64,000 bases of DNA from Kaistia geumhonensis. Its GTDB lineage: Bacteria > Pseudomonadota > Alphaproteobacteria > Rhizobiales > Kaistiaceae. The notes beneath the pieces were generated by a model. That model did no database searches, was not told the origin of the DNA, and was given only the letters and a program-made list of their open reading frames with translations. The stretch covers positions 3,488,001 through 3,552,000 of the forward strand of contig NZ_JAUSWJ010000001.1 in NCBI RefSeq assembly GCF_030815145.1, in the 5' to 3' direction. Positions 5,191 to 60,913 of this stretch are shown here, one piece after another (position 1 is the stretch's first letter; every line of letters begins with the position of its first letter). A program made the translations under genes and the position numbers.

Positions 5191-5194
5191 CCCG

Positions 5195-8940: not shown

Positions 8941-9064
8941 GAGACTTGATATGTGAGCCCGTCTCGATGTCGGGGATGAAGCGCTGTTCCGCGGGGAGGG
9001 CGGTGCTTGCCTGTTTCGCCGCGGGCGTTGTTGGTTCTACAATGCGGCGACATGGAGGGTGCGG

Positions 9065-10123: not shown

Positions 10124-10139
10124 GACGGCCGCCGCGCTG

Positions 10140-11135: not shown

Positions 11136-11312
11136 AGCTCGCCCTTCCCATTGAGGCCGCGTTAACCACGGACCGGGCACAGTCCGATCGGGTGGCCGGG
11201 CGCGGCTGATCTTCAAGCGAAGCTTCTACCCGACGCGGCCGGACGACAAGTCCGGCGCGGCACCGGCCGTGTGATGATCGGGCTTCCCGCCCGTCTGCGG
11301 ACGAGCATCGAC

Positions 11313-11903: not shown

Positions 11904-11930
11904 GAAAGAGAAGAAAGATGCGTCGCCGGC

Positions 11931-12380: not shown

Positions 12381-12572
12381 CAAGGAACCGTTCCGCCTGC
12401 ACAAGTCCGAGAACCGGCGGCCCTGCCCATGGCCGGCCACCGCGATGACGCTAACCTAACTTTCTCGGGAAGGTTTTGCAACGGTTGCGCATAACGATGA
12501 AAGAAGGGCCGGCGCTGGCGACGCCGACCCCCATTCTGATGCCGAGATGCGGTGCGATCGAGTCTTGCCGCG

Positions 12573-14156: not shown

Positions 14157-14252
14157 GGGGGTGTCCTTGTTCGCGGGGGAGAGGCTGGAACACCTCCAGC
14201 CTAGCCGGCGCGAATGACACCCCCTTCAAGGGCGTGTAACGCTTCGATGACG

Positions 14253-14269
14253 CCGCGGCGGGGCCGCGG
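14253..14269 (-). terminator. GC hairpin after argG
   Basis: CCGCGGC / GCCGCGG (14253-14259, 14263-14269) is a perfect 7-bp all-GC stem with a GGG loop, starting 13 nt past the argG stop. No U-run follows, so intrinsic termination is only possible. Confidence 0.3.
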
Positions 14270-14281
14270 CGCCGGCTTCAC

Positions 14282-15502
<1,221 letters not shown>

Positions 15503-34754: not shown

Positions 34755-35618
34755 TCAGACGCCGAGGCGTTTCAGCACCGCGGCGTTGAGGGGGCTGCCC
34801 CTGTCGGCGATGGTCTCGATCACCGCGAAGTGGTGATGGGCCGGAACTTCGAGGGTTTCGACGGTGTTGCCGAGCGCTGTGGCGGCGGCGGCGAAGCTCG
34901 CCTGCTGGCGCTTGAACTCGTCGGATTCGTCGCCGCCGACGACGAGGGTGAGCGGCGGCATGCCGGCATGGACGGCATGGAGCGGGCTGTTGCGCCCGGC
35001 CATGGCCGCGTCGAGGCCGACCGTCTCGTTGAGATAGGAGAGGCGGATCGGCTCGAGATCGTAGATGCCCGAGACGGCGACGCCGCCGGCGAGGATCGCG
35101 GGCGGCAGCTCCGGGTCGAAGGCGGGCCAGTCCGTCGTGGTGACGACGGCGGTCAGATGACCGCCCGCCGAATGGCCGGCGGCGAAGATGCGGTTCCGAT
35201 CGCCGGGGACGAGGCCGCCGGCGTTCTTCCATGTGAAGGCGAGGGCGGCGCGGACCTGGCGGGTGATCTCGTCCATGTCATGGTCCGGCGTCAGCGCATA
35301 GTTGATGACGACCAGCGTGACGCCGGCATCGACGACGCCCTCGGCGACGAAGCGGAAATCCGCCTTGTCCTTCCAGATCCAGTAGCCGCCATGGATATAG
35401 ACGAGGATCGGCGCGGCGGGATCGGCGGCGGGGAAGATGTCGAGCTTTTCCGTCCCGGACGGTCCATAGGCGATGTCGAGGCGGGCCGGCCTGCGGGCGG
35501 CTGTCTCGTCGCTGCGCGCCCGCCAGCGGTCGAAGGTCTCGAAGGCGTCGTCGGCGACGAGCCGCTCATACTGCTTGTCGAGGCCTTCCTGGTCGTAGCC
35601 GCGATAGATCGCCGTCAT
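34755..35618 (-). CDS. Alpha/beta hydrolase (kynurenine formamidase/esterase type)
   Basis: A 287-residue serine hydrolase. The oxyanion HGGYW (about residue 75), the nucleophile elbow GHSAGG, the acid near DESDEF and the catalytic His in HHHFAVIE match bacterial formamidases and hormone-sensitive-lipase-like esterases. It is the last gene of the seven-gene amidohydrolase-hydantoinase operon; its ATG overlaps the stop of the epimerase gene (ATGA). In context it may open an ester or N-formyl amide produced earlier in the pathway, which is inference. Confidence 0.9.
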   Translation of the reverse strand: MTAIYRGYDQEGLDKQYERLVADDAFETFDRWRARSDETAARRPARLDIAYGPSGTEKLDIFPAADPAAPILVYIHGGYWIWKDKADFRFVAEGVVDAGVTLVVINYALTPDHDMDEITRQVRAALAFTWKNAGGLVPGDRNRIFAAGHSAGGHLTAVVTTTDWPAFDPELPPAILAGGVAVSGIYDLEPIRLSYLNETVGLDAAMAGRNSPLHAVHAGMPPLTLVVGGDESDEFKRQQASFAAAATALGNTVETLEVPAHHHFAVIETIADRGSPLNAAVLKRLGV

Positions 35619-36616
35619 GCGCCGCCCTCCTCGAAGCCGAAGCGCTGGTGCCGCGCCTGCCATTCCATGAGATGCGCGAAGGCGGCGTCGAGATCGTAGA
35701 GGCCGGTCGGCCCGAACTCCTCGGTGAAGCGCTCCCAGGAGAGAACGCCGCCGTCATGATCGCCATAGAGATTGATCTCGGTCGCCTCGCCCGGATCGCC
35801 GCCGATCGCAATCGAGAAATCGGGGAAGAGCGCGGCCAGCCGCTCGCACCAGTCGCCGATCGACCAGAGATAGGGCGTGCCGAGATTGTAGACCGCGTGG
35901 CGATGGGCCGGCGCGCGCAGCAGCGTGATCAGCGAGGCGGCGGCATCGCGCGAGAAATGCCAGTTGCTGTGGCCGGGCCGCGGGAGCCAGGCGGGCCGGC
36001 CGGCGAAGGCGAGGCCGTTCGCCTGGAAGACCGGGTTCATCGTGTCGCGGATGCCGGTGCGGTGCTCCCAGGGGCCGAACACGCCGGCGAGGCGGCCGGC
36101 GACCCAGTCGAGCCCGGTCGCGGCGCCGATCTTGTCGAGGATCATCTCGCCCTGCCATTTGGTGAGGGCGTAGAGATTGCCGGGGTCCTTCGGATAGTCC
36201 TCGTCCAGCATGACGTAATCGGGCGTCGCGCCGCCGAAGATGGCGTTGGACGAGACGAAGACGAAGCGCTCGACGCCCTCGGCCGCGCTGGCGGCGGCGA
36301 CCGCGGCGAGGCCGCCGAGATTGACCGAGACGACGCGCCCGCTCTCCGTCCGCTCGCGCGCGACATTGGAGGTGATCGCCGCCGCATGCAGCACATGCGT
36401 CACCTGCTCGCCGGCGATGAGGCGGCGGATCGGGTCTTCCTGGCGGACATCGCAGACCGCCTCGGTGAGCCGGCCCGGCAATTCCGAGAAGACGCTGGTC
36501 GCGAGGAGCGGCAGCGGCTTGTCCGCCACCGCGACGACGCTTTCGCCCTCGGCGAGGAGTTGCTCGAGGATGTTGAGGCCGAGAAACCCGCTCGCGCCGG
36601 TGACAAGGATGCTCAT
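35615..36616 (-). CDS. NAD-dependent epimerase/dehydratase
   Basis: A 333-residue extended SDR: TGASGFLGLNIL at the N-terminus, SSNAIFGG with the catalytic Ser, YALTKWQGE (Tyr-x-x-x-Lys), and a C-terminal substrate domain. This type includes UDP-sugar epimerases and D-erythronate-type dehydrogenases. It overlaps both neighbours by ATGA, so it is part of the seven-gene operon. A substrate related to the hydantoinase product is inferred only from context. Confidence 0.9.
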   Translation of the reverse strand: MSILVTGASGFLGLNILEQLLAEGESVVAVADKPLPLLATSVFSELPGRLTEAVCDVRQEDPIRRLIAGEQVTHVLHAAAITSNVARERTESGRVVSVNLGGLAAVAAASAAEGVERFVFVSSNAIFGGATPDYVMLDEDYPKDPGNLYALTKWQGEMILDKIGAATGLDWVAGRLAGVFGPWEHRTGIRDTMNPVFQANGLAFAGRPAWLPRPGHSNWHFSRDAAASLITLLRAPAHRHAVYNLGTPYLWSIGDWCERLAALFPDFSIAIGGDPGEATEINLYGDHDGGVLSWERFTEEFGPTGLYDLDAAFAHLMEWQARHQRFGFEEGGA

Positions 36617-37311
36617 GGTCGCGGCGCCTCCAGCGCGGGTTTGGTATTTCGCGCGGCTTCCTCGCCGAGCGCCTTCAGCGCCACGGCCCGCGCGGCCTCG
36701 ATATGCAGCGTGCTGAGACGGGACGCCTCCGCGCCGTCGCCGGCCTTCAGCGCGGCGAGGATCGCCTTCAGTTCGCCGAGGCTCTGAAGCGGCCGCCCGC
36801 CCTGCGACATCGAGAGCGAGCGAAGATAGGACACGCGGCCATGCAGCGCATGCAGGATCTGGCCGAGAACAACGTTATCCGCAGCCTCGAAGATCGCCTC
36901 GTAGAAGGCGGTGTTTGTGCGGCGCTGCGCCTCGCGGTCGCCCGACATCGCGGCGGACTCGATCGCCTCCATGGCGGCGTCGAGCCGGCGTGCGAGCTCC
37001 TCTGTCATCGCGGCGGCGCAGAGCGCGCAGGCCCGCGCCTCGAGCAGGATGCGGACCTCGTAGAGATCGGCGACCTCCTTGAGGCTCATGGCGGCGACGA
37101 CGAAGCCGTGGCGGCGATTGCTCTCGACGAGGCGCTCGGCCTCCAGTTCGCGGATCACCTCGCGGGCGATGGTGCGCGAGACGCCGGCCCGCTCGCAGAT
37201 CTGCCGCTCGGTGAGCCGCGCGCCGGGCTTCAGCTCGCCGTCGAAGATCGCGGCGCGGATGGCGGCCGAGACCTGCTGGCGCACGGAGAGCAAAGAAAGG
37301 CCGGCCGTCAT
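36613..37311 (-). CDS. GntR family regulator (FCD-type)
   Basis: A 232-residue regulator with a GntR winged helix (ARLTERQICERAGVSRTIAREVIRELEAE, residues about 31-59) and an FCD all-helical ligand domain (ADLYEVRILLEARA, then a metal-binding helix set). FCD-type regulators respond to organic acids and amino acid derivatives. It sits fourth from the 3' end inside the operon it probably controls; the likely operator TTGTCA/TGACAA lies at 42491-42509 in front of the first gene. Overlaps: ATGA at the 3' end, TGATG at the 5' end. Confidence 0.93.
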   Translation of the reverse strand: MTAGLSLLSVRQQVSAAIRAAIFDGELKPGARLTERQICERAGVSRTIAREVIRELEAERLVESNRRHGFVVAAMSLKEVADLYEVRILLEARACALCAAAMTEELARRLDAAMEAIESAAMSGDREAQRRTNTAFYEAIFEAADNVVLGQILHALHGRVSYLRSLSMSQGGRPLQSLGELKAILAALKAGDGAEASRLSTLHIEAARAVALKALGEEAARNTKPALEAPRP

Positions 37312-37907
37312 CAGGTGAGCCCGTCCTCGCCGCGGATGGCGTCCGCGTCGAGGCCGCCGAGGCGATGGTTGAGGCGGCCGCGATTGGCGAAGGCGGCGAT
37401 GATCGCCACCTCGTCCGGCAGCGGCGCGTCGGCAAGATGCACGGTCACGCCGTCATAGTGCGAGCGGACATAGAGAGCGTCCTTGTGGGCGAGCGGCACG
37501 TCGATCGTGGCGCCGGGAGCGGCGCGCTTGGAGAAGGACGAGATCCAGGCGCGGCCGCCGCCGACGCCGCGGCGCAGCGCGTCGCCGAAAGGCGTCGTGA
37601 TCAGCGCGATGCCGTGGTCCTGCTCGCCGGCAAGGCCGATGACGGCGCCCTTGCCGTAGCTTTCGACCGTGTAGGGCGCCATGGCCGCGACGGCCTCCGC
37701 CGCCATGGCCTCGCCGAGCGCCGCGCTCGCCGCCACGAAGGCGCCGAGATCGGCCTCGAAGCGGCCGGCATAGGGATTGGCGATCACGGCCACGACCGCG
37801 ACCTTGCGCAGCGGCGGCTCGCCGGGCCGGCCCATCTCGGAGAAGGTCGTTTCGGCGAAGACGAACTGGCGGCGCAGGGAAAGGCCGGGGAGAGAGGAAA
37901 GGGTCAT
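37311..37907 (-). CDS. Amino acid synthesis family protein (DUF1185)
   Basis: A 198-residue PF06684-type protein: LRRQFVFAETTFSEMGRPGEPPLRKVAVVAV at the start (a run of the family signature; only its pieces are cited here), NPYAGRFEADLG, SYGKGAVIGLAGEQDHG and PLAHKDALYVRSHYD. The family has a chorismate-mutase-like fold and an unproven role in amino acid metabolism. It is coupled by overlaps to HyuB (ATGA) and GntR (TGATG). Its steady presence beside hydantoinase-type genes is what suggests a role in the same pathway. Confidence 0.9.
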   Translation of the reverse strand: MTLSSLPGLSLRRQFVFAETTFSEMGRPGEPPLRKVAVVAVIANPYAGRFEADLGAFVAASAALGEAMAAEAVAAMAPYTVESYGKGAVIGLAGEQDHGIALITTPFGDALRRGVGGGRAWISSFSKRAAPGATIDVPLAHKDALYVRSHYDGVTVHLADAPLPDEVAIIAAFANRGRLNHRLGGLDADAIRGEDGLT

Positions 37908-39664
37908 CGTGCCGCCGCCATTCCGGCGCGCAGCGCCTCCGTCGCCTCGTGGTCGATGCGCATCGCGTCGTCGATGACGACACCATAGGCGCTGCGGGCA
38001 TAGGCGATCGTGCAGAAGCCGTCGAGCACGTCGTCGAGCACCGTCGACACCGGCCGGTCGAGGGGATCGCCGAAGCCGCCGCCGCAGGGCGAATAGAAGG
38101 CCATGGTATCGCCCGGCTTCATCACGACGCCGGAGATCTTGGCATGCTGCGGCTCGGTGGTCCCGGCCGGATCGGCATGATTGAAGATGTCGACGCGGCC
38201 CTCGGCCCCGTCATGGCCGCCGAAAAGGCCCCAGGGCTTGTCGGTGTGGCGCTCGGCCTCGTGGGTCAGCCAGCCGCCTTCGAGCAGGCGCTGATGCTTG
38301 ACGACGCCGATGCCGCCGCGGAACCGGCCGGCGCCGCATTCGACATCGTCGCGCAGCTCGTAGCGGTCGCAGATCATCGGCAGATGCATGCCGAGATCCT
38401 CGATCGGGTTGTTGCGGGTATTGGCCATCAGATTGTCGATCGAATCCGGCCCGTCCGAGCGCGGGCGGCCGCCATAGGCGCCCTCGTTGACCTCGATGAA
38501 CACCCAGTAGTCGCCGCTGGTCTTCCTGAGACCCGAATAGGCGACGAAAGACAGCGAGGCCGAGGAGCCGGCGATGGCGGCCTCGGGCAGCACGGGCGAG
38601 AGCGCGCGGATGATGCAGTCGATCATGCGGTTGCACTGCGAGAACCGCGCCGAGGCGGCGGTCGGGAAGATCGGATTGAAGATCGTGCCCTTCGGCGCCG
38701 TCACCTTGATCGGCCGGAACGAGCCCTCGTTGGCGGGGATCGGGACGCTGGCCGTGAAGGTGTCGAGCAGCAGCGAGCGGAAGGCGACGTAGCAGGCGAC
38801 CTTGGTCGAGCCCTCGAAGGGCACGTTGAAGGCGGTCGGCACCTGCGGCGAGGAACCGGTCAGGTCGACCTCGGCCTCGTCGCCGCGGATGCGCACGCAG
38901 ACGCGGATCGGCAGGCGCACGCCGCGATTGCGGCCATCGTCGTCGAGCCAGCTTTCGGCGACATAGTCGCCGTCCGGAATCTCGGCGATGCGCTTGCGGA
39001 GCATCCGCTCGGTATAGGCCATGAGCTCGGCCGAGGCGGCCTCGACGGTCTCGGCGCCATAGGTGGCGTAGAGCTCCTGGAAGCGGCGGGCGCCGAGCTG
39101 CGCCGAGGCGATCTGCGCGCCGAGATCGTCCTGAAGCTGGCGGCCGACGCGGGAATTGTTGGCGAGATAATTCCAGACCGTCTCGTTGCGGACGCCGCCC
39201 TCGTAGAGCTTCACGGCCTTGAGCAGCATGCCCTCGCCGAAGATGTCCTGGATGTCGACGATGAGGCCGGGCGTCGCCGAGCCGATATCGACGTGATGGG
39301 CGGTGTTGGCGGCGAAGCCGATATGGCGGCCCTCGAAGAAGACCGGCACCACCACCGCGATGTCGGGCGAATGGCTCGCGCCGAAATAGGGATGGTTGTG
39401 GATGACGACGTCGCCCTCGCGCCAGGGCGTCGTCATCGACGCCTCGATGCCGCGCAGATAGCCGGGGATCGAGCCGATATGCAGCGGGGTGTTGTCGCTC
39501 TCGCACAGCGTCGCGAAGGAGCGGTCGAAGAGACCGGCGCCGAGATCCTCGCTCTCGCGGATGATCGAGGAGAAGGACATCCGGTAGAGGACATAGGCCA
39601 TTTCGCGGGCGATGGTGTGCAGCGCGCCGCCGATGACCTGAAGCGTGACGGGATCGATGCTCAT
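37904..39664 (-). CDS. hyuB: Hydantoinase B/oxoprolinase family protein
   Basis: A 586-residue HyuB subunit: DPVTLQVIGGALHTIAREM at the N-terminus, FSSIIRESEDLGAGLFD, GDVVIHNHPYFGASHSPDI with metal-binding His and Asp, and NNPIEDLGMHLPM further down. Together with HyuA it would form an ATP-dependent cyclic-amide (N-methylhydantoin- or 5-oxoproline-type) hydrolase. The ATG at 39662-39664 overlaps the HyuA stop by ATGA. The length is normal for the family. Confidence 0.94.
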   Translation of the reverse strand: MSIDPVTLQVIGGALHTIAREMAYVLYRMSFSSIIRESEDLGAGLFDRSFATLCESDNTPLHIGSIPGYLRGIEASMTTPWREGDVVIHNHPYFGASHSPDIAVVVPVFFEGRHIGFAANTAHHVDIGSATPGLIVDIQDIFGEGMLLKAVKLYEGGVRNETVWNYLANNSRVGRQLQDDLGAQIASAQLGARRFQELYATYGAETVEAASAELMAYTERMLRKRIAEIPDGDYVAESWLDDDGRNRGVRLPIRVCVRIRGDEAEVDLTGSSPQVPTAFNVPFEGSTKVACYVAFRSLLLDTFTASVPIPANEGSFRPIKVTAPKGTIFNPIFPTAASARFSQCNRMIDCIIRALSPVLPEAAIAGSSASLSFVAYSGLRKTSGDYWVFIEVNEGAYGGRPRSDGPDSIDNLMANTRNNPIEDLGMHLPMICDRYELRDDVECGAGRFRGGIGVVKHQRLLEGGWLTHEAERHTDKPWGLFGGHDGAEGRVDIFNHADPAGTTEPQHAKISGVVMKPGDTMAFYSPCGGGFGDPLDRPVSTVLDDVLDGFCTIAYARSAYGVVIDDAMRIDHEATEALRAGMAAAR

Positions 39665-41778
39665 GACGCCACCTCGGCGGAAGGCTGCTGGTTGCGGGCG
39701 ATGCGGATATTGCCGGCCTTCTCGATGCGCGCGGTGAAGCCGGGCGGCACCAGAGTCGTCGAGTTGTGCTGCAGGATGATCGCCGGGCCGGGCACGACAT
39801 GGCCAGCCTTCAGGCGGTCGCGGTCGTAGCGGGGCGTGTCGAGACGCTGGCGATCGTCGAAGGTCGTCGGCCGGACATAGAGAAGCGCCTCCGCCGGATC
39901 GGGCGAGGCGGCATCGGCGAGGCCCGGCCAGGTGAGTGGCGGCACCTCGGCGGAGCCGATCACCCGGAGCGTCACGATCTCGACCTGCGTATCGTCGAAG
40001 CGATAGCCGTAGTCGCGCTCGTGCACGCCGTGGAAGGCCGCGACGATCGCCCCGGCACTCTCGGCCGTCACGGGACCATCGGGAAGCGGGGTGCGCAGCT
40101 CGAAGCCCTGGCCCTGATAGCGGCATTCGGCGACGCGCTCGAAGATCATCGCCTCGGGCGCGACGCCGTCTGCGGCGAGCCGCTCGGCTGCGAGCGCCGT
40201 GAGATCGGCGAGCGTCGCGTTGGCGGCGCCGAAATCGCCCATCGCCGGACCGCTGACGAGGGTCGGCGTCGAGCGCGTGAACTCGTAGGCGAGCTTTGTC
40301 GCGAGCAGGCCCATGGCGGCGGTGATGCCCGGCGCCGGCGGCACGATGACGTCGCGCGCCGCGACGGCTTCGGCCAGCGCCACGCCATGCAGCGGGCCGG
40401 CGCCGCCGAACGGCATCAGCGAGAAGCGGCGCGGGTCGAAGCCGCGCGCCACCGAATTGGAGCGGATGGCGAGCGCCATATTGGCGTTGACGATGGTGAC
40501 GATGCCGAGCGCGGCTTCTTCCAGCGTCATGCCGAAGGGCTCGGCGATCTTTTCACGCACCGCCCTCTCGGCGAGCGAGGGATCGATCGCCATGTCGCCG
40601 CCGAGGAAGCGCTCGGGATCGAGCCGGCCGAGCACGACATGGGCGTCGGTGACGGTGGGCTCGGTGCCGCCCTTGCCGTAGCAGGCCGGACCCGGCATGG
40701 CGCCGGCCGAGCGCGGGCCGACGCGGAACGCGCCGCCTTCGTCGCGGAAGGCGATGGAGCCCCCGCCGGCGCCGATCGTGTCGAGATCGAGCATCGGCGC
40801 AAGCACCGGATGCTGGCCGACGACCGTGTCGCGCGGGTTCATGATGCGGATGGCGCCATCGGCGATGACGCCGATATCAGCCGAGGTGCCGCCGATGTCG
40901 ATGGTGATGACGTCGCCGACGCCGGACATCGCGCCGGCCCAGCGGCCGCCGATGACGCCGCCGGCCGGGCCGGACATGAGGATGGTGACCGGACGCTCGG
41001 AGCAGGTGGCGACGGTTCCGATGCCGCCATTCGACTGCATGATGCGCAGCTCCGCATCCATGCCCTCGTCGCGCAGGCGCGTCTCGAGATTGCGCAGATA
41101 GCGGGCGGTGCGCGGGCCGACATAGGCGTTCATCGCCGTGGTCGAGAAGCGCTCGAACTCGCGGATGACGTTCGCCACCTCGGAAGAGGCCGAGGCGAAG
41201 GCCTCCGGCATCTCCTCGCGGACGATGGCGAGCGCCGCCTTCTCATGCGCGTCGTTGAGGAACGAGAACAGGAAGCAGACGATCACCGCCTCGACGCCGC
41301 GCGCCTTCATCTCGCGCACGGCGGCGCGCACCTCGTCGAGGTCGATCGGCGTCTCGACGCGGCCGTCCGGCGGCATGATCCGCTCGGTGATCGGCATGCG
41401 GTTGCGCCGCTTCACCAGCGGATCGGACTGCCAGGGCACGTCGAAATGCAGCGAAAAATTGTGCGGACGCTTGTGGCGCGCGATGTGCAGCAGGTCGCGG
41501 AAGCCCTTCGTCGTCAGCATGCCGACTTCGGCGCCGTTCTTCTCGATCGTGATGTTGGTCGCGACCGTCGTGCCGTGCACGACGCGGCGGACCGCCTTCG
41601 GATCGAGGCCGGCGATGCGGCAGATCGCGAGGATGCCGTCGACGACGCCCACCGACTGGTCGGCCGGGGTCGAGGGGACCTTGTGGACGAAGACGCGGCG
41701 GCCGCCGGGGCCGTCGTCGTCGCGCTCGAGAACGAGGTCGGTGAAGGTGCCGCCGACGTCGACGCCGATCGAGGCCAT
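39661..41778 (-). CDS. hyuA: Hydantoinase A/oxoprolinase family protein
   Basis: A 705-residue HyuA subunit of the actin-like ATPase fold: GVDVGGTFTDLVL at the N-terminus (phosphate 1), RRVVHGTTVATNITIEK, and IDIGGTSADIGVI (phosphate 2), then GPACYGKGGTEPTVTDA. It would couple ATP hydrolysis to opening of a five-membered cyclic amide bound with HyuB. The ATG shares one base with the stop of the amidohydrolase gene (TGATG). Length and order (A before B) are typical. 5-Oxoprolinase, N-methylhydantoinase and acetone carboxylase subunits cannot be told apart by eye. Confidence 0.95.
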   Translation of the reverse strand: MASIGVDVGGTFTDLVLERDDDGPGGRRVFVHKVPSTPADQSVGVVDGILAICRIAGLDPKAVRRVVHGTTVATNITIEKNGAEVGMLTTKGFRDLLHIARHKRPHNFSLHFDVPWQSDPLVKRRNRMPITERIMPPDGRVETPIDLDEVRAAVREMKARGVEAVIVCFLFSFLNDAHEKAALAIVREEMPEAFASASSEVANVIREFERFSTTAMNAYVGPRTARYLRNLETRLRDEGMDAELRIMQSNGGIGTVATCSERPVTILMSGPAGGVIGGRWAGAMSGVGDVITIDIGGTSADIGVIADGAIRIMNPRDTVVGQHPVLAPMLDLDTIGAGGGSIAFRDEGGAFRVGPRSAGAMPGPACYGKGGTEPTVTDAHVVLGRLDPERFLGGDMAIDPSLAERAVREKIAEPFGMTLEEAALGIVTIVNANMALAIRSNSVARGFDPRRFSLMPFGGAGPLHGVALAEAVAARDVIVPPAPGITAAMGLLATKLAYEFTRSTPTLVSGPAMGDFGAANATLADLTALAAERLAADGVAPEAMIFERVAECRYQGQGFELRTPLPDGPVTAESAGAIVAAFHGVHERDYGYRFDDTQVEIVTLRVIGSAEVPPLTWPGLADAASPDPAEALLYVRPTTFDDRQRLDTPRYDRDRLKAGHVVPGPAIILQHNSTTLVPPGFTARIEKAGNIRIARNQQPSAEVAS

Positions 41779-42461
41779 CAGCGCGCCTCCGGCGAGAGGC
41801 TATCGAGATAGGCGAGGACGCCTTCGAGCGGCTCGACATCGCCGAACTTGGCGTCGATGTCGAAGAGGTTCCATTCCACCGCCCCGGCGATGCGGTCGCC
41901 GACGCATTCGCGCACGACGATCGGGCGGAAGCCGTTCCACAGCGCGTCCTCGCAGGAGAGGCGCACGCAGGACGACAAGGTGACGCCGGTCAGGATCACG
42001 GTGTCGACGCCGAGCGAGGTGAGGTAGCCGGCGAGATCGGTGCCCTGGAAGGCGCTCGCCCGCTTCTTGACGACGAGGAGTTCGTCGGCCCGCCGCTCGA
42101 GGCGGTCGTCGATCTCGCAGAGCGGGCTGCCGGCCTTCAGATGTTCCAGCGGGATCTTCTTGCCCCAGAGGCCGGTGTCGGCGAAGGGGCCGTCCACGAT
42201 CTCGTAGGCGCAGGTGGTGAACACGATCGGCAGGCCGAGCGCGCGGCCGGCTGCGATGAGCCGCTGCGTCGCCGGAATGATCGTCTCCATGCCGTCGCAG
42301 GCGAAGGCGCTGCCCTTCGTCGTCCAGGCCTTGGCGAGATCGACATTCACGATCGCCGGACGCTTGCCATAGCCGAGGCGCCGCATGAAGCCGCGTCCCT
42401 TGTAGAAGGCCGCATATTCCTTGAACGCCGTCCGGAGGGCCTGCTCGAAGTCCTGCTGCAT
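41778..42461 (-). CDS. Isochorismatase-fold amidohydrolase (N-carbamoylsarcosine amidase-like)
   Basis: A 227-residue cysteine hydrolase of the isochorismatase superfamily. The catalytic triad is visible as Asp in VNVDLAKAW, Lys in LLVVKKRASAF and Cys in LTGVTLSSCVRLSCEDAL. N-carbamoylsarcosine amidase and nicotinamidase-like enzymes share this layout; the ASAFQGTDL segment with context of HyuAB favours an N-carbamoyl amide. It is the first gene of the seven-gene operon, with GAGGAAA before the ATG at 42459-42461 and a likely GntR operator 30-48 bp upstream. Confidence 0.88.
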   Translation of the reverse strand: MQQDFEQALRTAFKEYAAFYKGRGFMRRLGYGKRPAIVNVDLAKAWTTKGSAFACDGMETIIPATQRLIAAGRALGLPIVFTTCAYEIVDGPFADTGLWGKKIPLEHLKAGSPLCEIDDRLERRADELLVVKKRASAFQGTDLAGYLTSLGVDTVILTGVTLSSCVRLSCEDALWNGFRPIVVRECVGDRIAGAVEWNLFDIDAKFGDVEPLEGVLAYLDSLSPEAR

Positions 42462-42490: not shown

Positions 42491-42509
42491 TTGTCAGATT
42501 GTATGACAA
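42491..42509. promoter_or_regulatory. Candidate GntR operator
   Basis: TTGTCA (42491-42496) and TGACAA (42504-42509) form a perfect 6-bp inverted repeat with a 7-bp spacer, 30 bp before the first gene of the hydantoinase operon and 156 bp before ade. The size and TTGT/ACAA ends fit FadR/FCD-type operators, and the operon itself encodes such a regulator. Confidence 0.6.
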
Positions 42510-42664: not shown

Positions 42665-44377
42665 ATGACGGATGCTGACGGGCTGAAGCGGATGATCCGC
42701 GCGGGGCAGGGCGCGGAGCCTGCCGACCTCGTGATCCGCGACGTGGCGCTGCTCGATCTCGTCACCGGCGCGGTCGAGACGACCGACATCGCGATCGTCG
42801 CCGACCGCATCGTCGGCACGCATGGCCGCTACGAGGGCGAGCACGTCATCGACGGGGCCGGCCGCTACGCGGTGCCGGGCTTTATCGACACGCATCTCCA
42901 TGTCGAATCGTCGCTGGTGACGCCGTTCGAGTTCGACCGCTGCGTGTTGCCGCATGGCGTGACGACGGCGATCTGCGATCCGCACGAGATCGCCAATGTG
43001 CTCGGCGGCGCGGGCATCCGCTATTTCCTCGACGCGGCCGAGCGGACGGTGATGGACCTCCGCGTCAACCTCTCGTCCTGCGTCCCGGCAACCGCCTTCG
43101 AGACGGCGGGCGCTGCGCTATCGATCGACGATCTGTTGCCCTTCGCCGACCATCCGAAGGTGATCGGCCTCGCCGAGATGATGAATTTTCCCGGCGTGCT
43201 CGCGACCGATCCGGGCGTGCTGGCGAAGCTCGCGGCCTTCCAGGGCCGGCATATCGACGGCCATGCGCCGCTTCTGCGCGGCATGGCGCTGAACGGCTAT
43301 CTCGCGGCCGGCATCCGCACCGATCACGAGGCGACCAGCGCCGCCGAGGCGCGCGAGAAGCTCGCCAAGGGCATGGCGGTGCTCATCCGCGAGGGCTCGG
43401 TCTCGAAGGATCTCGCGGCGCTCGCCGAGGTGCTGGACGAGAATTCCTCGAGCTTCATGGCGCTCTGCACCGACGACCGCAACCCGCTCGACATCGCCGA
43501 GGAAGGCCATCTCGATGCGCTGATCCGCATGCTCGTCGCCCGCGGCCGGCCGCTGCATCACGTCTATCGCGCGGCGAGCTGGTCGGCGGCGCGCATCTTC
43601 GGGCTGCGCGATCGCGGCCTCGTCGCGCCCGGCTGGCGGGCCGACATCGTCCTTCTCGACGATCTCGGCGAGTGCCGCGTCTCTGAGGTGATCGCCGCCG
43701 GACGGCCGGTCACGGACGCGCTGTTCGCCGCGCGCGACAGCGTCCCGCCGGTCGGCTTCGGCTCGGTCAAGGCGCCGGAGGTCACCGCCGCGTCCTTCGC
43801 CGTCTCGGGACGGCGCGGCAACCAGGAGACCTCGGTCATCGGCGTGAAGGCCGGGCTCATCATCACCAGCCACGAGAAGGCGGTGCTGCCGGTCGAGAAC
43901 GGCGAGAGCAAGCCCGACCTCGGCCGCGACATCGTCAAGGTGGCCGTGGTCGAGCGGCACGGCAAGAACGGCAATATCGGGCGCGGCTTCGTCACCGGCT
44001 TCGGGCTGAAGCGCGGCGCCATCGCCTCCTCGGTCGGCCATGACAGCCACAACATCACTGTCATCGGCGCCTCGGATGCCGACATGGCGGTGGCCGTCAA
44101 CCGGCTGCGCGAGACGGGCGGCGGCTTCGTCGTGGGGGTGGACGGCGCGGTCGTCGCCGAACTGGCGCTTCCGATCGCCGGGCTGATGTCGGACCTCTCC
44201 TTCGACGCGGTGCGCGACAAGCTGCATCACCTGCGCGAGGCGGCCTATGGCCTCGGCTGCACGCTGCCCGAGCCGTTCCTGCAGATCGCCTTCCTGCCGC
44301 TGCCCGTCATTCCGCATCTGAAGATCACCGACCGCGGCATGTTCGACGTCGACGCGTTCCGGCTGATCGAGGAATGA
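42665..44377 (+). CDS. ade: Adenine deaminase
   Basis: A 570-residue two-metal amidohydrolase converting adenine to hypoxanthine and ammonia. Metal and catalytic motifs: [33 protein letters not shown] and [10 protein letters not shown]; the C-terminal domain shows [19 protein letters not shown]. Length is standard for bacterial Ade (about 570-590). The ATG at 42665 ([11 protein letters not shown]) has AAGG upstream; 58 extra codons in frame upstream are low-complexity. It leads a probable three-gene salvage cassette with the PfkB kinase and ADP-ribosylglycohydrolase, although a repeat pair lies after it. Confidence 0.96.
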
Positions 44378-44524: not shown

Positions 44525-45424
44525 ATGAGCCGCATCTATTGCCTTTCCACCGTCGATCTCGACCGCGTCTTCGAGCTCGATCATCTGCCGGGCCATGACG
44601 AGAAGATTTTCGCGACCGGCTTTCACGAGGGCGCGGGCGGGCAGGGCGTGTTCGTCGCGCGGGCGCTGGCGGCGCTTCGGGCGCCCGTGACCTATGTCGG
44701 CTCGGTGGGCGACGATCTCGCCGGGGCCGGGCTGATCGCCGAGCTCTCGGCCGTGCCGGGGCTTTCCGTCGACATCGCGCGGCTGCCGGGCATCGCGACG
44801 GCCAATTGCGCGATCCTCGTCGACCGCACCGGCGAGAAGGCGATCGTGCTGGCGCCGATCGCCAGGGAACTGGTCGAGACGCTCGGCGAGGGCCTCGCGC
44901 CCGAGGCGGGCGACATCGTCACGGCGAACTTCTTCCATCCCGAGCAGATCGTCCGCGTCTTCGGCCGCGCCCGCGCGGCCGGCGCGACGACGATCATCGA
45001 CATGGAGGCGACCGGCATCGGCATCTTCGGCTGGGACGCCGCCTTCGCCGTCACCGCCGCCGCCGACATCACCTGCACCAACCAGCCGACGCTCGACGCC
45101 TGGTCGAAGCGCGAGGGCCTCGAGGGGCCGCTGCTCGCCCGCGCCGAACGTTTCGCGCGGCGCGTCGCCGGCGCCGAGGGCCGCGCCTGCGTCACGCTCG
45201 GCGCAGAGGGCGTGCTCGCCTTCGACGGAAAGGAGGCGCGGCATGTGCCGGCGGTCAAGGTGAAGGCGGTCAACACCACCGGCGCCGGCGACACCTTCCT
45301 CGCCGGCCTCGCCTTCGGCCTGTCGCATGGCCATGATCTCTTCGCCGCAGCCGGCCTCGCCACGCGCGTTGCCGCCGATTTCCTCGCCCATGGCAGGGTC
45401 GATCCCGCCCGCCTCGGCCTTTGA
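44525..45424 (+). CDS. PfkB family carbohydrate/nucleoside kinase
   Basis: A 299-residue ribokinase-fold kinase. The N-terminal GGxG-type segment is HEGAGGQGVFVARALAAL (about residues 38-55) and the C-terminal signature with the catalytic Asp is NTTGAGDTFLAGLA. Ligand-specific loops do not show which sugar or nucleoside is used. It lies between ade and an ADP-ribosylglycohydrolase gene on the same strand, so phosphorylation of ribose or a nucleoside is a fair guess. The ATG at 44525 follows a repeat pair. Confidence 0.9.
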   Translation: MSRIYCLSTVDLDRVFELDHLPGHDEKIFATGFHEGAGGQGVFVARALAALRAPVTYVGSVGDDLAGAGLIAELSAVPGLSVDIARLPGIATANCAILVDRTGEKAIVLAPIARELVETLGEGLAPEAGDIVTANFFHPEQIVRVFGRARAAGATTIIDMEATGIGIFGWDAAFAVTAAADITCTNQPTLDAWSKREGLEGPLLARAERFARRVAGAEGRACVTLGAEGVLAFDGKEARHVPAVKVKAVNTTGAGDTFLAGLAFGLSHGHDLFAAAGLATRVAADFLAHGRVDPARLGL

Positions 45425-45447: not shown

Positions 45448-46482
45448 ATGACCGACACCCTCGCCGACCGCATCGAACGCGTGATCGCCGCCGCCTGTCT
45501 CGGCGACGCGCTGGGCGCCCCGCCCGAGGCGATGCATCCGGAGGAGATCCGCAAGGTCTTCGGCGGCCGCATCACCAGCTTCGTGCCGGCACCGCCGCTC
45601 GCGCCCTTCTCGAACGGCGCCGCGCCGGGCTCGCTTACCGACGACGCGACGCAGATGCTGGCGATGGCGCGGATCATCATCGAGGCGAATGGCGATCCGA
45701 CCATCGAGGACGCGGCGCGGGCACTGATCGCCTGGGCCGACGATCCGCGCGGCTTCGGCAAGTTCGCCGGTCCCTCGACGCAGGCCGCCATCGACCGCAT
45801 GCGCGCCGGCGAGGACCCGCGCCTCGTCGCGACGCCGCCGCGCTATTCGGTCGCGATGGGGACCACCAATGGCGCGGCCATGCGCGCGCCGGTGGCGGGC
45901 TGCGTGCGGCCGGGCGACATAGAGGGCGCCGTCGACGTGGCGGCGACGCTGTCGGCGCCGACCCACAACACGCAGATCGCCTATGCCGGCGCGGGCGCCG
46001 TGGCGGCGGCCGTGGCGATGGGGCTCACGGGCGTGCGCGGCGTTTCAGTGGCGGATGTGGCGATGGCCGGCGCCGAAGCGGGCCTGAAGCTCGCGGAAAC
46101 GCGCGGTCGCCTCGCGGCCGGACCGAGCGTCCTGAAGCGGATCGAACTCGCGGCGGCGATCGGCGAGCGCTATCGCGGCGACGCGGAAGGTGCGATGACG
46201 GAACTGGGCGCGGTAATCGGTGCCGGTCTGCCGATGGCCGAGGCCGTTCCGACGGCGATCGGTCTCGCGGTCGCAGTCGGCGAGGATCCGTTCGGCGCCA
46301 TCGTCGCCGCCGCGAACGAGGGCGCCGACAGCGATACGGTCGCCCTCATCGCAGGGGCCATCGTCGCCGCCTGGTCGCCGACGCTGAACGCGCCGGGCGA
46401 CATGATGGCGACGCTGGAGCTCGTCAACGGCGTCAATCTCGGCGAGATCGCCGCCGGCCTCGCCGCGGTCGCCCGGGGCTGA
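45448..46482 (+). CDS. ADP-ribosylglycohydrolase family protein
   Basis: A 344-residue member of the all-helical ARH/DraG fold that cleaves N-glycosidic bonds to ribose. Di-metal motifs: GDALGAPPEAMHPEE, SLTDDATQM (the TDDT-like motif with Ala in the last place) and GADSDTVALIAGAIV near the C-terminus. Members in salvage clusters are thought to act on free nucleoside derivatives rather than proteins. AGGAG lies before the ATG at 45448, 23 nt after the PfkB stop. A strong hairpin (46489-46518) follows. Confidence 0.92.
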   Translation: MTDTLADRIERVIAAACLGDALGAPPEAMHPEEIRKVFGGRITSFVPAPPLAPFSNGAAPGSLTDDATQMLAMARIIIEANGDPTIEDAARALIAWADDPRGFGKFAGPSTQAAIDRMRAGEDPRLVATPPRYSVAMGTTNGAAMRAPVAGCVRPGDIEGAVDVAATLSAPTHNTQIAYAGAGAVAAAVAMGLTGVRGVSVADVAMAGAEAGLKLAETRGRLAAGPSVLKRIELAAAIGERYRGDAEGAMTELGAVIGAGLPMAEAVPTAIGLAVAVGEDPFGAIVAAANEGADSDTVALIAGAIVAAWSPTLNAPGDMMATLELVNGVNLGEIAAGLAAVARG

Positions 46483-55869: not shown

Positions 55870-56814
55870 TCAACGCTCTCCGCGGCGGAAGGGCTGCATC
55901 AGCGCCTGCGGGACACGGGCGCGGCGGGCCATCACGAGCAGCGCCAGGATCGACATCAGATAGGGGATCATCAGGAAGAGCTGGTAGGGGATCGCCTTGC
56001 CGACGACATGCGAGAGCCGCAGCTGATAGGCGTCGAACAGGGCGAAGAGCAGCGCGCCGAGCAGAGCGAGGCCCGGCCGCCAGGAGGCGAACACGACGAG
56101 GGCGATGCAGACCCAGCCGCGGCCCTGCACCATGGTCGGGAAGAAGGAATTGAAGGCCGAGAGCGTCAGGAAGGCGCCGCCGACCGCCATCAGCGCGCTG
56201 CCGGCCACGACGGCGCCGATGCGAAGGCGGATCGGGTCGATGCCCTGCGCCTCGGCCGCATGCGGGTTCTCGCCCACGATGCGCACCGCGAGGCCGAGCG
56301 GCGTGCGCGCCAGCGCCACCGCCGCCGCCAGCGCGAGAAGGACCGCCAGATAGGTCGGCGCCGTCTGGCTGAACAACGCCTCGCCGAGAAACGGGATGTC
56401 CGACAGGCCAGGAATCGCGATCGGCTGAAAGGGCACGATGGTCGGCGGGGAGCCGGAGACGGGGATCGACAGGCGGAAGATGTAATAGGACAGCGATGAG
56501 GCGAAGAGCGTGATGCCGAGCCCGGTCACATGCTGCGACAGGCCGAGCGGCACCGTCATCGCCGCATGCAGGAGGCCGAACATCGCGCCCGAGAGAGCGG
56601 CGACCGCGATGCCGGCCCAGAGGTCGCCGCCGTGATAGACGGTCATCCAGCCGATCATGGCGCCGAAGGTCATGATGCCCTCGATGCCGAGATTGAGGAC
56701 GCCCGAGCGCTCGCAGATGAGCGCGCCCAGCGTTCCGAAGATGAGCGGCGTCGCGATGCGCAGCACCGCCGCCCACAGGCCCGCCGAGGCGAAGATGTCG
56801 AGCGCTTCCATCAT
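55870..56814 (-). CDS. ABC transporter permease (BMP/nucleoside-type), second permease
   Basis: A 314-residue inner-membrane permease of the BPD_transp_2 type: ATPLIFGTLGALICERSGVLNLGIEGIM at the start, about eight to nine membrane segments, and the GENPHAAEAQGID segment that contacts the ATPase. With the first permease, the double ATPase and the BMP binding protein it forms an uptake system of the kind that imports purine nucleosides in relatives. Its ATG overlaps the first permease stop by ATGA. Confidence 0.93.
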   Translation of the reverse strand: MMEALDIFASAGLWAAVLRIATPLIFGTLGALICERSGVLNLGIEGIMTFGAMIGWMTVYHGGDLWAGIAVAALSGAMFGLLHAAMTVPLGLSQHVTGLGITLFASSLSYYIFRLSIPVSGSPPTIVPFQPIAIPGLSDIPFLGEALFSQTAPTYLAVLLALAAAVALARTPLGLAVRIVGENPHAAEAQGIDPIRLRIGAVVAGSALMAVGGAFLTLSAFNSFFPTMVQGRGWVCIALVVFASWRPGLALLGALLFALFDAYQLRLSHVVGKAIPYQLFLMIPYLMSILALLVMARRARVPQALMQPFRRGER

Positions 56815-57863
56815 CGGCGGATCCGGTAGTTGGCGAGCGACAGCGCAACCAGCATGGCCAGCAGCGACAGCGCCACGATCACATCGGCGATGAAGCTCGG
56901 CACGCCGAGCGCCCGGCTCATCGAATCGGCGCCGACGAACATGGTCGCGACGAAGAGCGCGGCGAAGACGACGCCGATCGGATCGAGCGCCGCCAGCATC
57001 GCGACCACGATGCCGGTATAGCCGAAGCCGGGCGAGAGATCGGTGGTGACATAGCCCTTGACGCCCATCACCTCGATCGCGCCGGCGAGGCCGGCGAGCC
57101 CGCCCGAGAGGCAGGCGACGAGAACGAGGATTCGCGTGAGGCCGATGCCGGCGAAGCGGGCGGCCGCCGGATTGAGGCCGGCGGCGCGGCTCTCCATGCC
57201 GAAGACGGTGCGCGCCTGGACGAGCGCGACGAGAAGGGCCAGGCCGACCGCGACAAGGAGGCCGATATGGAGGCGCGAGCGCGGCAGGAGCTTCGGAAGA
57301 AGCGCATCGCCCACCACCGGCACCGATTGCGGCCAGCCGAAGGCGAGCGGGTCCTTGAGCACACCCTCGATCATCATCGAGACGAAGAGGAGGGCGACGA
57401 AATTGAGCAGCAGCGTCGTCACCACCTCGTCGACGCCGAAGCGCAGACGCAGGGCCAGAGGGCCGAGCAGCATCAGCGCACCGGCGACCGCGCCGCCGAC
57501 CATCAGCGCCGGGATCAGCAGCGGCGCCGGCAGGTGCAGCCCGTGCTGCGAGCCGAGCGCGGCGGCGGCCAGCGCGCCGACGAGGAACTGGCCCTCGGCG
57601 CCGATGTTCCAGAGCCGCGCGCGGAAGGCGACCGCGGCGGCGAGACCGGTGAGGATCAGCGGGACCGTGCGCGTCAGCGTCTCGGTGATCGAGAGGCGCG
57701 AGCCGAAGGCGCCGATGAGCATGCGCCGATAGGCTTCGAGGACCGGGGCGCCGGCGAGCGCGATGAGAATGCCGGCCAGCGCCAGCGCGACGACGACGGC
57801 GGCGATCGGTGCGCCGATGCGGGCGGCCAGCGGCACATGGGCGCGGCGTTCGAGACGGATCAC
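56811..57863 (-). CDS. ABC transporter permease (BMP/nucleoside-type), first permease
   Basis: A 350-residue permease with about nine to ten hydrophobic segments. Family markers are RTVPLILTGLAAAVAFRARLWNIGAEGQFLVGA (shown in part) and AAGLNPAAARFAGIGL, the coupling loop. It overlaps the ATPase gene upstream (ATGA) and the second permease gene downstream (ATGA), so all three are translated together. Confidence 0.93.
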   Translation of the reverse strand: MIRLERRAHVPLAARIGAPIAAVVVALALAGILIALAGAPVLEAYRRMLIGAFGSRLSITETLTRTVPLILTGLAAAVAFRARLWNIGAEGQFLVGALAAAALGSQHGLHLPAPLLIPALMVGGAVAGALMLLGPLALRLRFGVDEVVTTLLLNFVALLFVSMMIEGVLKDPLAFGWPQSVPVVGDALLPKLLPRSRLHIGLLVAVGLALLVALVQARTVFGMESRAAGLNPAAARFAGIGLTRILVLVACLSGGLAGLAGAIEVMGVKGYVTTDLSPGFGYTGIVVAMLAALDPIGVVFAALFVATMFVGADSMSRALGVPSFIADVIVALSLLAMLVALSLANYRIRR

Positions 57864-59365
57864 GCGGCCTCCTCCCAGATGCCGGCCATCATCAGGCCGA
57901 GACGGCGCGGATCGGCGGCGGCGACGGGAATGGGCGGCGACAGGCGGCCCTTCACGATCGCCTGCACGCGGTCGGCGAGCGCCAGCACCTCGTCGAGATC
58001 CTCCGAGATCAGCAGCACCGCCGTGCCGGCGCCGCGCGCCGCGAGAATCTCGCCATGCACGCTCGCCACCGCGCCTTCGTCGAGGCCGCGGGTCGGCTGC
58101 GCCGCGACGAGCAGCTTCGGCGCCTCCGCGAGGTTGCGGCCGAGGATCAGTTTCTGGACATTGCCGCCCGAGAGCAGGCGGATCGGGCTGTCGGGACCGC
58201 CGCCGCGCACGTCGAAGCGCTCGACGACGGAGCGGGCGAAGAGACGGCCGGCGGCGCGGTCGACGAAGCCGGCCCGCGAGAAGCGCGGCTCGCGCAGCCG
58301 CTCCAGCACGGCATTTTCCCAGAGCGCCATCTCGCCGACGACGCCGTCGCCATTGCGATCCTCCGGCACGCGCCCGACGCCGGCGGCGACGAAGCCGCGC
58401 GGGCTCGGATCCTCGACCGGGCGGCCATAGAGCGTGAGATGTCCGGCGCTCGGCCTCTCCAGCCCGCAGGCGAGGCGCACGAGCGTCGCCTGGCCGTTGC
58501 CGGAGACGCCGATGATGCCGAGCGTCTCGCCGGCGCGGACAGCGAAATCGAGGCCCTTCAGCCGGCCGCCGGCATCGAGGCCGCGGGCCTCCAGCACGAC
58601 CTCGCCCGGCTGCTGGCTCTCGCGGCGCGGGCGGGCGACGCGGCGGCCGACCATCAGTTCGGCCAGTTCCTCGCGGCTGGTGGCAGAGGCGGCGCGCTCG
58701 GCGACGACGCGTCCGCCGCGCAGCACGACGACGCGATCGGCGGCGGCCATCACCTCGTGCAGCTTGTGCGAGATGAAGATGATCGAGAGCCCGAGCTGCG
58801 CCATGCCGCGCAGCGTCGCATAGAGCTGTTCGGCCTCCTGATGGGTGAGGACGGCGGTCGGCTCGTCGAGGATCAGGATGCGGGCGTCGCGATAGAGCGC
58901 CTTCAGGATCTCGACCCGCTGCCGTTCGCCGACGGAGAGATCGCCGACACGGGCATCGGGATCGACGGCGAGGCCGAAGCGCTCCGCGAGCGCGGCGAGG
59001 CGTTTGCGGGCGCCACCGGCGCCGAGCCCGAGCGAGAACAGGCGCCGCGTCCCTGCGATGACGTTCTCCAGCACCGAGAGATTGGCGGCGAGCGCGAAAT
59101 GCTGATGCACCATGCCGATGCCGGCCGCGATCGCGGCGCGCGGCTTGCCGGGCGGGAGTTCCCGCCCGAAAGCGACTGCCCGGCCCGAATCGGCGGTGTA
59201 ATGGCCGAACAGGATGTTCATCAGCGTCGTCTTGCCGGCGCCGTTCTCGCCGAGCAGCGCCAGGAGTTCGCCCTGCCGCAGCTCCAGCGTCACGTCGTCA
59301 TTGGCCGTCAGCGATCCGAAGCGCTTGGTGATGCCTTCGAGGCTGAGGACGACGGGCGCGCTCAT
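57860..59365 (-). CDS. ABC transporter ATP-binding protein with two nucleotide-binding domains
   Basis: A 501-residue fused ATPase of the sugar/nucleoside (MglA/RbsA/NupO) type. Domain 1 has Walker A GENGAGKTT (about residues 39-47), signature LSVGERQRV and Walker B ILILDEPTAVL. Domain 2 has the degenerate Walker A GVSGNGQATL and LLSGGNVQKLIL with a Walker B that lacks the Glu (LLVAAQPTRGL), as is typical of the second site. It powers the permeases downstream. The start overlaps the amidase stop (ATGA). Confidence 0.95.
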   Translation of the reverse strand: MSAPVVLSLEGITKRFGSLTANDDVTLELRQGELLALLGENGAGKTTLMNILFGHYTADSGRAVAFGRELPPGKPRAAIAAGIGMVHQHFALAANLSVLENVIAGTRRLFSLGLGAGGARKRLAALAERFGLAVDPDARVGDLSVGERQRVEILKALYRDARILILDEPTAVLTHQEAEQLYATLRGMAQLGLSIIFISHKLHEVMAAADRVVVLRGGRVVAERAASATSREELAELMVGRRVARPRRESQQPGEVVLEARGLDAGGRLKGLDFAVRAGETLGIIGVSGNGQATLVRLACGLERPSAGHLTLYGRPVEDPSPRGFVAAGVGRVPEDRNGDGVVGEMALWENAVLERLREPRFSRAGFVDRAAGRLFARSVVERFDVRGGGPDSPIRLLSGGNVQKLILGRNLAEAPKLLVAAQPTRGLDEGAVASVHGEILAARGAGTAVLLISEDLDEVLALADRVQAIVKGRLSPPIPVAAADPRRLGLMMAGIWEEAA

Positions 59366-60798: not shown

Positions 60799-60853
60799 GG
60801 AAATGGTCCTGCCTCCGACGAGAGCATTCTCTTTGGCGTCTGGCCCGCCCTGG

Positions 60854-60886
60854 CCGTCATGGCCGGGACAGGCCCGGCCATGACGG
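60854..60886. repeat. Perfect palindromic repeat between BMP gene and amidase gene
   Basis: CCGTCATGGCCGGG (60854-60867) and its exact complement (60873-60886) form a 14-bp stem with a 5-nt loop. It is a copy of the dispersed repeat in which both ends have become symmetric. Inside an operon such a hairpin could protect the upstream BMP mRNA or reduce downstream expression. Confidence 0.85.
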
Positions 60887-60913
60887 TTTCGGGAAACTCC
60901 GCGGGCAATCCGA

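Follow-up and report, generated by a model that had tools for sequence, protein, structure and literature searches.

A HyuAB and DUF1185 operon in Kaistia with a predicted hydantoin-type core: a candidate cluster for breakdown of a creatinine-like or hydantoin-like compound

INTRODUCTION

Within a 64,000-nucleotide (nt) stretch of the genome of Kaistia geumhonensis (contig NZ_JAUSWJ010000001.1, positions 3,488,001 to 3,552,000; hereafter the window), seven genes on the minus strand at positions 34755 to 42461 encode, among others, the two subunits of an ATP-dependent cyclic-amide hydrolase (HyuAB), an isochorismatase-family amidohydrolase, and a protein of the DUF1185 family. Which compound would such an operon take apart? 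A sequence-only reading of this DNA had left the substrate unnamed and had set creatinine-type chemistry aside. Here, we argue that the first three enzymes form a two-step core that is likely to open a hydantoin-type ring at the expense of ATP and then strip the carbamoyl group, and we see about an even prospect that the locus as a whole is a locally regulated Kaistia catabolic cluster for a creatinine-like or hydantoin-like compound. A literature search, which lacked most subscription journals, found no paper on the Kaistia operon.

RESULTS

A predicted two-step core of a known pathway kind

The seven genes run from g1 at 42461 down to g7 at 34755, which confirms the coordinates, strand, and order given earlier, and each of the earlier gene labels is backed by a Pfam match.

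g1, 41778..42461, minus strand: isochorismatase-family amidohydrolase of the N-carbamoylsarcosine amidohydrolase type (Pfam Isochorismatase; nearest solved chain 1nba; D41, K132, C165, R190)
g2, 39661..41778, minus strand: HyuA, ATP-binding subunit of the ATP-dependent cyclic-amide hydrolase (Pfam Hydantoinase_A, Hydant_A_N, Hydant_A_C)
g3, 37904..39664, minus strand: HyuB, metal-site subunit (Pfam Hydantoinase_B)
g4, 37311..37907, minus strand: DUF1185/AA_synth protein, of the family of TgnF and HcdD (Pfam AA_synth, PF06684)
g5, 36613..37311, minus strand: GntR-family regulator with an FCD domain (Pfam GntR and FCD)
g6, 35615..36616, minus strand: extended-SDR NAD-dependent epimerase/dehydrogenase (Pfam Epimerase; motifs GASGFLG and YALTK)
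g7, 34755..35618, minus strand: alpha/beta hydrolase, esterase- or formamidase-like (Pfam Abhydrolase_3; motifs GHSAG and HGGY)

The nearest solved chain to g1 is 1nba, an N-carbamoylsarcosine amidohydrolase (E 1.1e-68), and that to both HyuA and HyuB is 7hk5, an N-methylhydantoinase (E 2e-207 and 4e-178, respectively), which is one chain of 1288 aa, whereas the Kaistia subunits are separate chains. D41, K132, C165, and R190 are all present in g1, and we take their equivalents in 1nba to be catalytic. The two subunits have the marks of the HyuAB family, being encoded adjacently with a 4-nt overlap and scoring 302.8 bits for Hydantoinase_A (cut-off 22.9) and 520.9 bits for Hydantoinase_B (cut-off 26.8). 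Furthermore, the aspartates of the caprolactamase ATP site have counterparts in HyuA D7 and D294, and that enzyme's metal tetrad (Asp-His-Asp-His) has them in HyuB D40, H98, D101, and H123, the residues being those named in passages of PMC8453981. Caprolactamase CapAB thus shares the HyuAB superfamily and these conserved sites, but the Kaistia proteins fall far below the CapA and CapB models (557.6 and 271.5 bits against a cut-off of 1000 for each).

The operon therefore holds the same two families, with the same order of action and intact active-site residues, as the route formed by N-methylhydantoinase and N-carbamoylsarcosine amidohydrolase. The earlier pairing of an ATP-dependent cyclic-amide hydrolase with an N-carbamoyl amidase is borne out by the nearest solved relatives and the active sites. 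N-methylhydantoin hydrolysis by HyuAB and N-carbamoylsarcosine as the substrate of g1 are candidate activities; sequence alone does not fix the substrate, as the earlier reading had held.

Operon layout and conservation within the genus

As had been claimed, all six junctions in the window overlap, by 1, 4, 4, 1, 4, and 4 nt (two TGATG and four ATGA), and it is these overlaps that suggest the coupled production of the seven products ("in step") put forward earlier. For g7, the start most likely lies at 35618, which gives the ATGA overlap, rather than at 35663, the upstream ATG given by a list of longest open reading frames.

A g1 search of 101 genomes returned 12 matches at E 1e-40, and 7 of the 14 genus genomes carry g1 at a level of at least 87%, all seven with the full gene order. 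Across these operon genomes, HyuA, HyuB, and g1 are the best conserved (85 to 98%), and the DUF1185 protein, regulator, SDR, and hydrolase are more variable (67 to 96%). A g1 scan of named genomes found the same operon in a K. soli record, and five loci with all seven genes (L087 to L091) stand among the best 80 of 381 relatives; many of these 80 are short contigs, so that further copies may be missed.

With start codons chosen by homology in a script, the six junctions of the seven operon-bearing genus genomes overlap in 34 of 42 cases, so overlap is not fixed. The g3-g4, g4-g5, and g6-g7 junctions overlap in all seven genomes, and gaps occur at g1-g2, g2-g3, and g5-g6 in some. An in-frame stop was flagged once in the aligned span of G001 g2 and once in that of G005 g5; these are probably alignments extending beyond the gene end, and G001 g2 is an open frame of 699 codons.

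Neighborhoods of HyuAB relatives favor hydantoin-type chemistry

With respect to the company that HyuAB keeps elsewhere, we opened six plasmid relatives (59 to 67%), two from Mesorhizobium and one each from Ancylobacter, Azoarcus, Aminobacter, and Agrobacterium, leaving out that of Paracoccus denitrificans (68%). Three of the six adjoin sarcosine oxidase (two) or creatininase (one) genes. In both Mesorhizobium records (L272 and L276), HyuAB is accompanied by an NCS1 permease, an isochorismatase-family gene, and the enzymes sarcosine oxidase, SHMT, and serine ammonia-lyase; their iso-hyuA-hyuB clusters have homologues of the Kaistia core in the same order (g1 47%, HyuA 60 to 61%, HyuB 64 to 65%) but differ in a LysR gene where Kaistia has GntR, in the sarcosine and serine genes upstream, and in having no DUF1185 annotated in the stretch. 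Near the Ancylobacter relative lie genes for a CDA-fold deaminase and for a creatininase that scores 372 bits against a cut-off of 235, and the neighbors of the Azoarcus relative include an isochorismatase-family gene and an NCS1 permease.

The iso-HyuA-HyuB module (HyuAB about 60 to 70%) recurs in other bacteria without the tail genes, at L101, L108, L112, L122, L125, L127, L147, L152, and L159, with L155 lying at a contig end, and HyuAB of 45 to 50% sits near a g1 homologue in further loci of the named-genome scan. Among the latter, three actinobacterial loci (L104, L146, and L165) encode a fused HyuAB of about 1285 aa, beside glycine-cleavage-like genes (by eye) in L104. Over the 75 loci that remain when L087 to L091 are taken from the 80 best, HyuA and HyuB each lie within 7 kb of g1 in 18. 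For C. glutamicum ATCC 14067, passages of PMC8864220 give the authors' proposal that CshA and HyuB convert N-methylhydantoin to sarcosine. In sum, the neighborhoods of HyuAB relatives favor hydantoin-type chemistry without fixing it, and the earlier dismissal of creatinine-type chemistry is not supported, as the nearest solved relatives belong to that route and three of the six plasmid relatives adjoin sarcosine oxidase or creatininase genes.

In a HyuB tree whose outgroup has long branches flagged by the tool, the Kaistia protein falls inside a 16-row clade with proteobacterial modules that include the opened plasmid clusters (support 95/94). This grouping with hydantoin-type clusters speaks against maleimide, succinimide, or another cyclic imide as the substrate. 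The sequence-only reading had suggested a cyclic imide or a nucleobase-derived ring, and the HyuAB family does act on varied cyclic amides according to passages of PMC8453981; even so, we hold an imide to be very improbable, and another HyuAB cluster of the same genome (L084) has partners that possibly fit an imide route, itself an unsure assignment. This second cluster (C1:3572000-3590000, 2279-9926) lies divergent to genes for a LeuC/LeuD-type hydratase, an isochorismatase-family hydrolase, and a PrpB-like lyase, and could fit a route from imide through maleamate, maleate, and malate to cleavage. The models for leucine biosynthesis, however, accept its LeuC (712 bits, cut-off 560) and LeuD (182 bits, cut-off 116), and the lyase, at 253 bits, falls short of the 354 required for PrpB. 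HyuA, HyuB, and an isochorismatase-family gene also stand together in G015 (L054), as they do in L084.

A palindrome between two divergent arms

Upstream of g1, the operon faces a second set of genes on the plus strand, with a palindrome between the two arms. The sequence-only reading had mentioned neither the divergent arm nor the palindrome; both are present at the locus.

Palindrome, 42499..42509, no strand: TTGTATGACAA (TTGTCATACAA on the operon strand), between the arms, beginning 48 nt upstream of g1
Divergent gene 1, 42692..44377, plus strand: adenine-deaminase (Ade) family amidohydrolase (TIGR01178)
Divergent gene 2, 44525..45424, plus strand: PfkB-family kinase, ribokinase-like (Pfam PfkB)
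Divergent gene 3, 45448..46482, plus strand: ADP-ribosylglycohydrolase family protein (Pfam ADP_ribosyl_GH)

The palindrome core TGTCATACAAT is found in all seven operon genomes, and the full palindrome in five of them. In the 4.59-Mb genome the core occurs once, and its reversed control does not occur. FCD-type GntR proteins presumably bind TNGTNNNACNA palindromes of this kind, and we propose the element as a candidate operator of g5.

With 586.4 bits, the Ade protein clears the cut-off (472.5) of TIGR01178, the equivalog model for adenine deaminase, and it lies below that of PRK10027 (585.5 of 768). Its gene is present in six of seven operon-bearing and none of seven operon-less genus genomes (Fisher P = 0.005, the rows not being independent), always beside the operon where present. 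Orthologues of pfkB (at least 63%) and of the ADP-ribosylglycohydrolase gene, adprh (at least 69%), occur in all seven operon genomes, with homologues of 42% and 54%, respectively, in the operon-less G006; second pfkB homologues (43 to 44%) lie elsewhere in the operon genomes G004, G005, and G008.

The constancy of the pfkB-adprh pair in operon genomes could point to a ribosylated hydantoin-like substrate, from which the ADP-ribosylglycohydrolase would free the base and PfkB would phosphorylate the sugar, with Ade deaminating the base ahead of HyuAB and g1. Passages of PMC10819704 describe a similar pair in Escherichia coli, yegU-yegV, within the yegTUV operon under the GntR regulator GgaR (YegW), and there, too, an ADP-ribosylglycohydrolase-family gene and a putative sugar kinase go with a GntR regulator. 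However, as described in those passages, yegTUV has no deaminase or HyuAB in the operon and is tied to glycogen and ADP-glucose, not to ring breakdown. Given also that a diverged pair occurs in the operon-less G006, that G005 lacks ade, and that the palindrome near g1 is about 180 nt away from ade, a ribosylated substrate appears improbable.

The DUF1185 protein and its wider neighborhoods

The g4 protein scores 212 bits for AA_synth (PF06684; cut-off 27), and its gene overlaps hyuB by 4 nt in all seven operon genomes. The near-invariant DUF1185 residues are kept in four Kaistia rows, except that the window protein, as the only one of them, has D at E97; the protein of G013 (L051, 7150-7677) is about 22 codons shorter than that of the window over the aligned span. 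To our knowledge, DUF1185 has solved structures and no defined reaction. The g4 model (pLDDT 95.4) matches the two solved DUF1185 structures with Z 28.1 (3byq) and 20.4, and a Foldseek search with it found only chains of these two structures below E 0.001. The DUF1185 structure paper (PMC2954203) suggested a role in amino-acid metabolism. In passages of PMC7913881, two members of the family stand in ring-degradation clusters: TgnF is said to stimulate TgnE-dependent oxidation in trigonelline catabolism, and HcdD is proposed to act likewise when 7-hydroxycoumarin is broken down. The effect described there is stimulation (proposed for HcdD) and no defined reaction, and those passages do not mention HyuAB.

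The family is found in 66 of 199 genomes of the order. We surveyed 107 DUF1185 loci, namely 87 new ones, 19 others (L063 to L081, including close relatives), and the window, leaving out five (two each of G001 and G013, plus G082), against 75 comparison loci chosen by g1, which come from other organisms and have a mean length of 11.8 kb versus 13.9 kb. Contig ends truncate some loci, and only panel families are visible. Within 7 kb of DUF1185 we observe a molybdenum hydroxylase (XDH) in 34 of 107 loci (6 of 75 in the comparison set), SSADH in 26 (2 of 75), and an enamidase-like amidohydrolase in 22 (0 of 75); the size of these enrichments is not to be trusted, because the comparison set was not organism-matched and the query genes for these three families came from DUF1185 loci, which favors matches there. 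"Enamidase-like" is a label that we take from the start of the sequence; one such protein that was scanned matches general amidohydrolase models of Pfam only, and for two that were scanned no NCBIfam model shown passes.

The survey of DUF1185 and HyuAB pairing that had been suggested for this locus does not reveal a frequent pair. HyuA or HyuB lies within 7 kb in 9 of the 107 loci, the window included, and both subunits do so in only 3. HyuB is rarer near DUF1185 than in the comparison set (8 of 107 versus 18 of 75; P = 0.002), a lower rate that is expected because that set was picked by g1. The earlier expectation that the operon would give DUF1185 a pathway was thus overstated, since TgnF and HcdD had already been placed in pathways (passages of PMC7913881) and HyuA or HyuB is near so few of the family's genes. 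In the Kaistia genome itself, two DUF1185 genes stand in tandem in L081 (C1:1558000-1575000, 8089-14793), close to genes for an amidohydrolase and an isochorismatase-family protein; ABC permeases and nucleoside-hydrolase-like genes can also be made out there by eye, and L080 is arranged similarly.

A relation of DUF1185 to RidA was considered and is not favored: Rid proteins (Z 5.1 to 5.7), RutC (Z 4.7), and chorismate mutase all fall at Z 4.7 to 5.7 against the g4 model, within the tool's common range and with no standout, and PurM-type folds score higher (Z 6.4). This bears on a Rut-like pathway for a pyrimidine or other unsaturated ring, in which HyuAB would open the ring, g1 would act as RutB, DUF1185 as a RutC-like enamine/imine deaminase, g7 as RutD, and g6 as an aldehyde reductase. 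That one-for-one match of gene roles counts for such a pathway, as do the alignments of the g4 model to Rid proteins and RutC, although these lie in the common range. Two loci lend it some color: in L125 (2563-10694), genes for a GTP cyclohydrolase II-like protein, DUF1688, and uracil phosphoribosyltransferase, a trio that we assume to be a URC-type set, are followed directly by iso-HyuA-HyuB, and in L108, HyuAB lies near a dihydropyrimidinase gene. However, g1 is far from RutB (TIGR03614 32.6 bits, cut-off 377.95; E 2.4e-6), and we give a Rut-like pathway little credence.

Tail genes and other neighbors

For g6, none of the best 25 of 26 NCBIfam models reaches its cut-off. At E 1e-60, with up to five candidates scored per genome, it has matches in 4 of 385 genomes of the class including its own, the others at 36 to 41%, and at E 1e-40 in four plasmid records, the best at 44%. 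The latter, a distant homologue from Paracoccus yeei whose neighborhood was the one opened among the 16 plasmid records for g6 and g7, lies near genes annotated as N-carbamoyl-D-amino-acid hydrolase, Zn-dependent hydrolase, and aspartate/glutamate racemase, all on the opposite strand. The nearest solved chain to g7 is 9n8r, Lipase 1 (E 2.2e-38), and 12 plasmid records match it, the best at 43%. Further along the window (55870-61897), a PnrA-like substrate-binding protein and ABC-transporter-like genes (the latter by eye) are encoded, with an amidase-family gene among them.

DISCUSSION

How might the pieces act together? The divergent Ade-type deaminase may turn an imino (cyclic guanidine) ring into an oxo (hydantoin) ring. 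HyuA with ATP would then activate the ring amide and HyuB with its metal would open the ring to an N-carbamoyl amino acid, a step suggested by the family, the intact active sites, and the neighborhood of relatives; on the same basis, g1 would hydrolyze this product, releasing CO2 and ammonia and leaving the free amino acid. The DUF1185 protein, SDR dehydrogenase, and alpha/beta hydrolase might conceivably deal with a reactive product or with a side chain, and the GntR-FCD regulator, probably a repressor, would work through the palindrome that precedes g1. This full scheme is less certain than its two-step core.

Several observations weigh against reading the locus as a cluster for a creatinine-like or hydantoin-like compound. 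The Aminobacter and Agrobacterium HyuAB relatives stand with amidases and without a g1 homologue within the fetched flanks (a Rhodococcus relative of 48 to 51% has an amidase nearby as well), and g1 shares only 47 to 50% identity with its homologues in the four annotated clusters where one is present. Kaistia HyuB lies outside the subclade with sarcosine-oxidase and creatininase neighbors, as sister, at a weak fork (81/73), to a group of Azoarcus, L122, L125, L108, and the creatinine-type clusters. The genome has no soxB match over the curated cut-off, the best for TIGR01373 (heterotetrameric type) being 111 bits of 529.45, and no creatininase or CDA-type deaminase is found among the 7 operon and 12 other window genes scanned, the search for these not being genome-wide; an N-methylated branch is therefore unsupported here. 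Because the Ade protein passes the adenine-deaminase model, its plain reading would be conversion of adenine to hypoxanthine, and G005 has the operon with a katG-like gene (by eye; L049, 12863-15040) in the place of ade. The link between the arms across the genus is an association among related genomes, and one shared island may give the same pattern. Finally, the SDR (g6) and the alpha/beta hydrolase (g7) are left without explanation.

Two of these sets of facts carry alternatives of their own. The absence of sarcosine oxidase, pointed out earlier, holds for this genome as far as soxB is concerned; that of a creatinine deaminase holds for the CDA type among the genes scanned and is weakened by the divergent Ade-type gene. 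Both bear on a plain pathway from creatinine or N-methylhydantoin to sarcosine with the extra genes as bystanders. The nearest solved relatives of both core enzymes are creatinine-route enzymes, and the sarcosine oxidase and creatininase genes beside half of the opened plasmid relatives fit it, too. Nevertheless, we consider it unlikely: besides the lack of a soxB match over the cut-off and of a creatininase among the window genes scanned, the three junctions that overlap in every operon genome argue against bystanders. To that route the locus adds DUF1185, SDR, alpha/beta hydrolase, Ade, PfkB, and ADP-ribosylglycohydrolase genes. The divergent arm, for its part, has a sizeable chance, short of even, of being an unrelated purine salvage unit merely travelling with the operon on one genomic island. 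The match of Ade to its equivalog is in keeping with such a unit, as are the retention of pfkB and adprh in G005 and their homologues in G006; set against this is that ade in the genus is confined to operon-bearing genomes and adjoins the operon each time.

The reading that we prefer remains that of a locally regulated cluster for a creatinine-like or hydantoin-like compound. In its boldest extension, the ten genes would be one regulon degrading an undescribed cyclic guanidine, perhaps ribosylated, with the glycosidase and kinase handling the sugar, a recruited Ade-type deaminase giving the hydantoin, and HyuAB and the carbamoylase giving the amino acid; DUF1185 would be an auxiliary of ring-opening pathways in general, resolving the reactive enamine, imine, or enol that they release irrespective of the ring-opening enzyme. 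We offer this with considerable doubt.

On the sequence evidence, the core appears to be of a familiar pathway type. The novelty lies in what is combined with it, namely a tail of overlapping DUF1185, SDR, and esterase-like genes, the divergent Ade-PfkB-ADP-ribosylglycohydrolase arm, and a palindrome whose core is unique in the genome. For the choice of substrates to assay, this yields a short list headed by hydantoins, creatinine-like rings, and N-carbamoyl amino acids. Should the Ade-type protein deaminate a cyclic guanidine, this would be a new entry point to the hydantoin/ureide route, and for the DUF1185 family at large, the survey gives a testable theme in its molybdenum-hydroxylase, SSADH, and enamidase-like neighbors.

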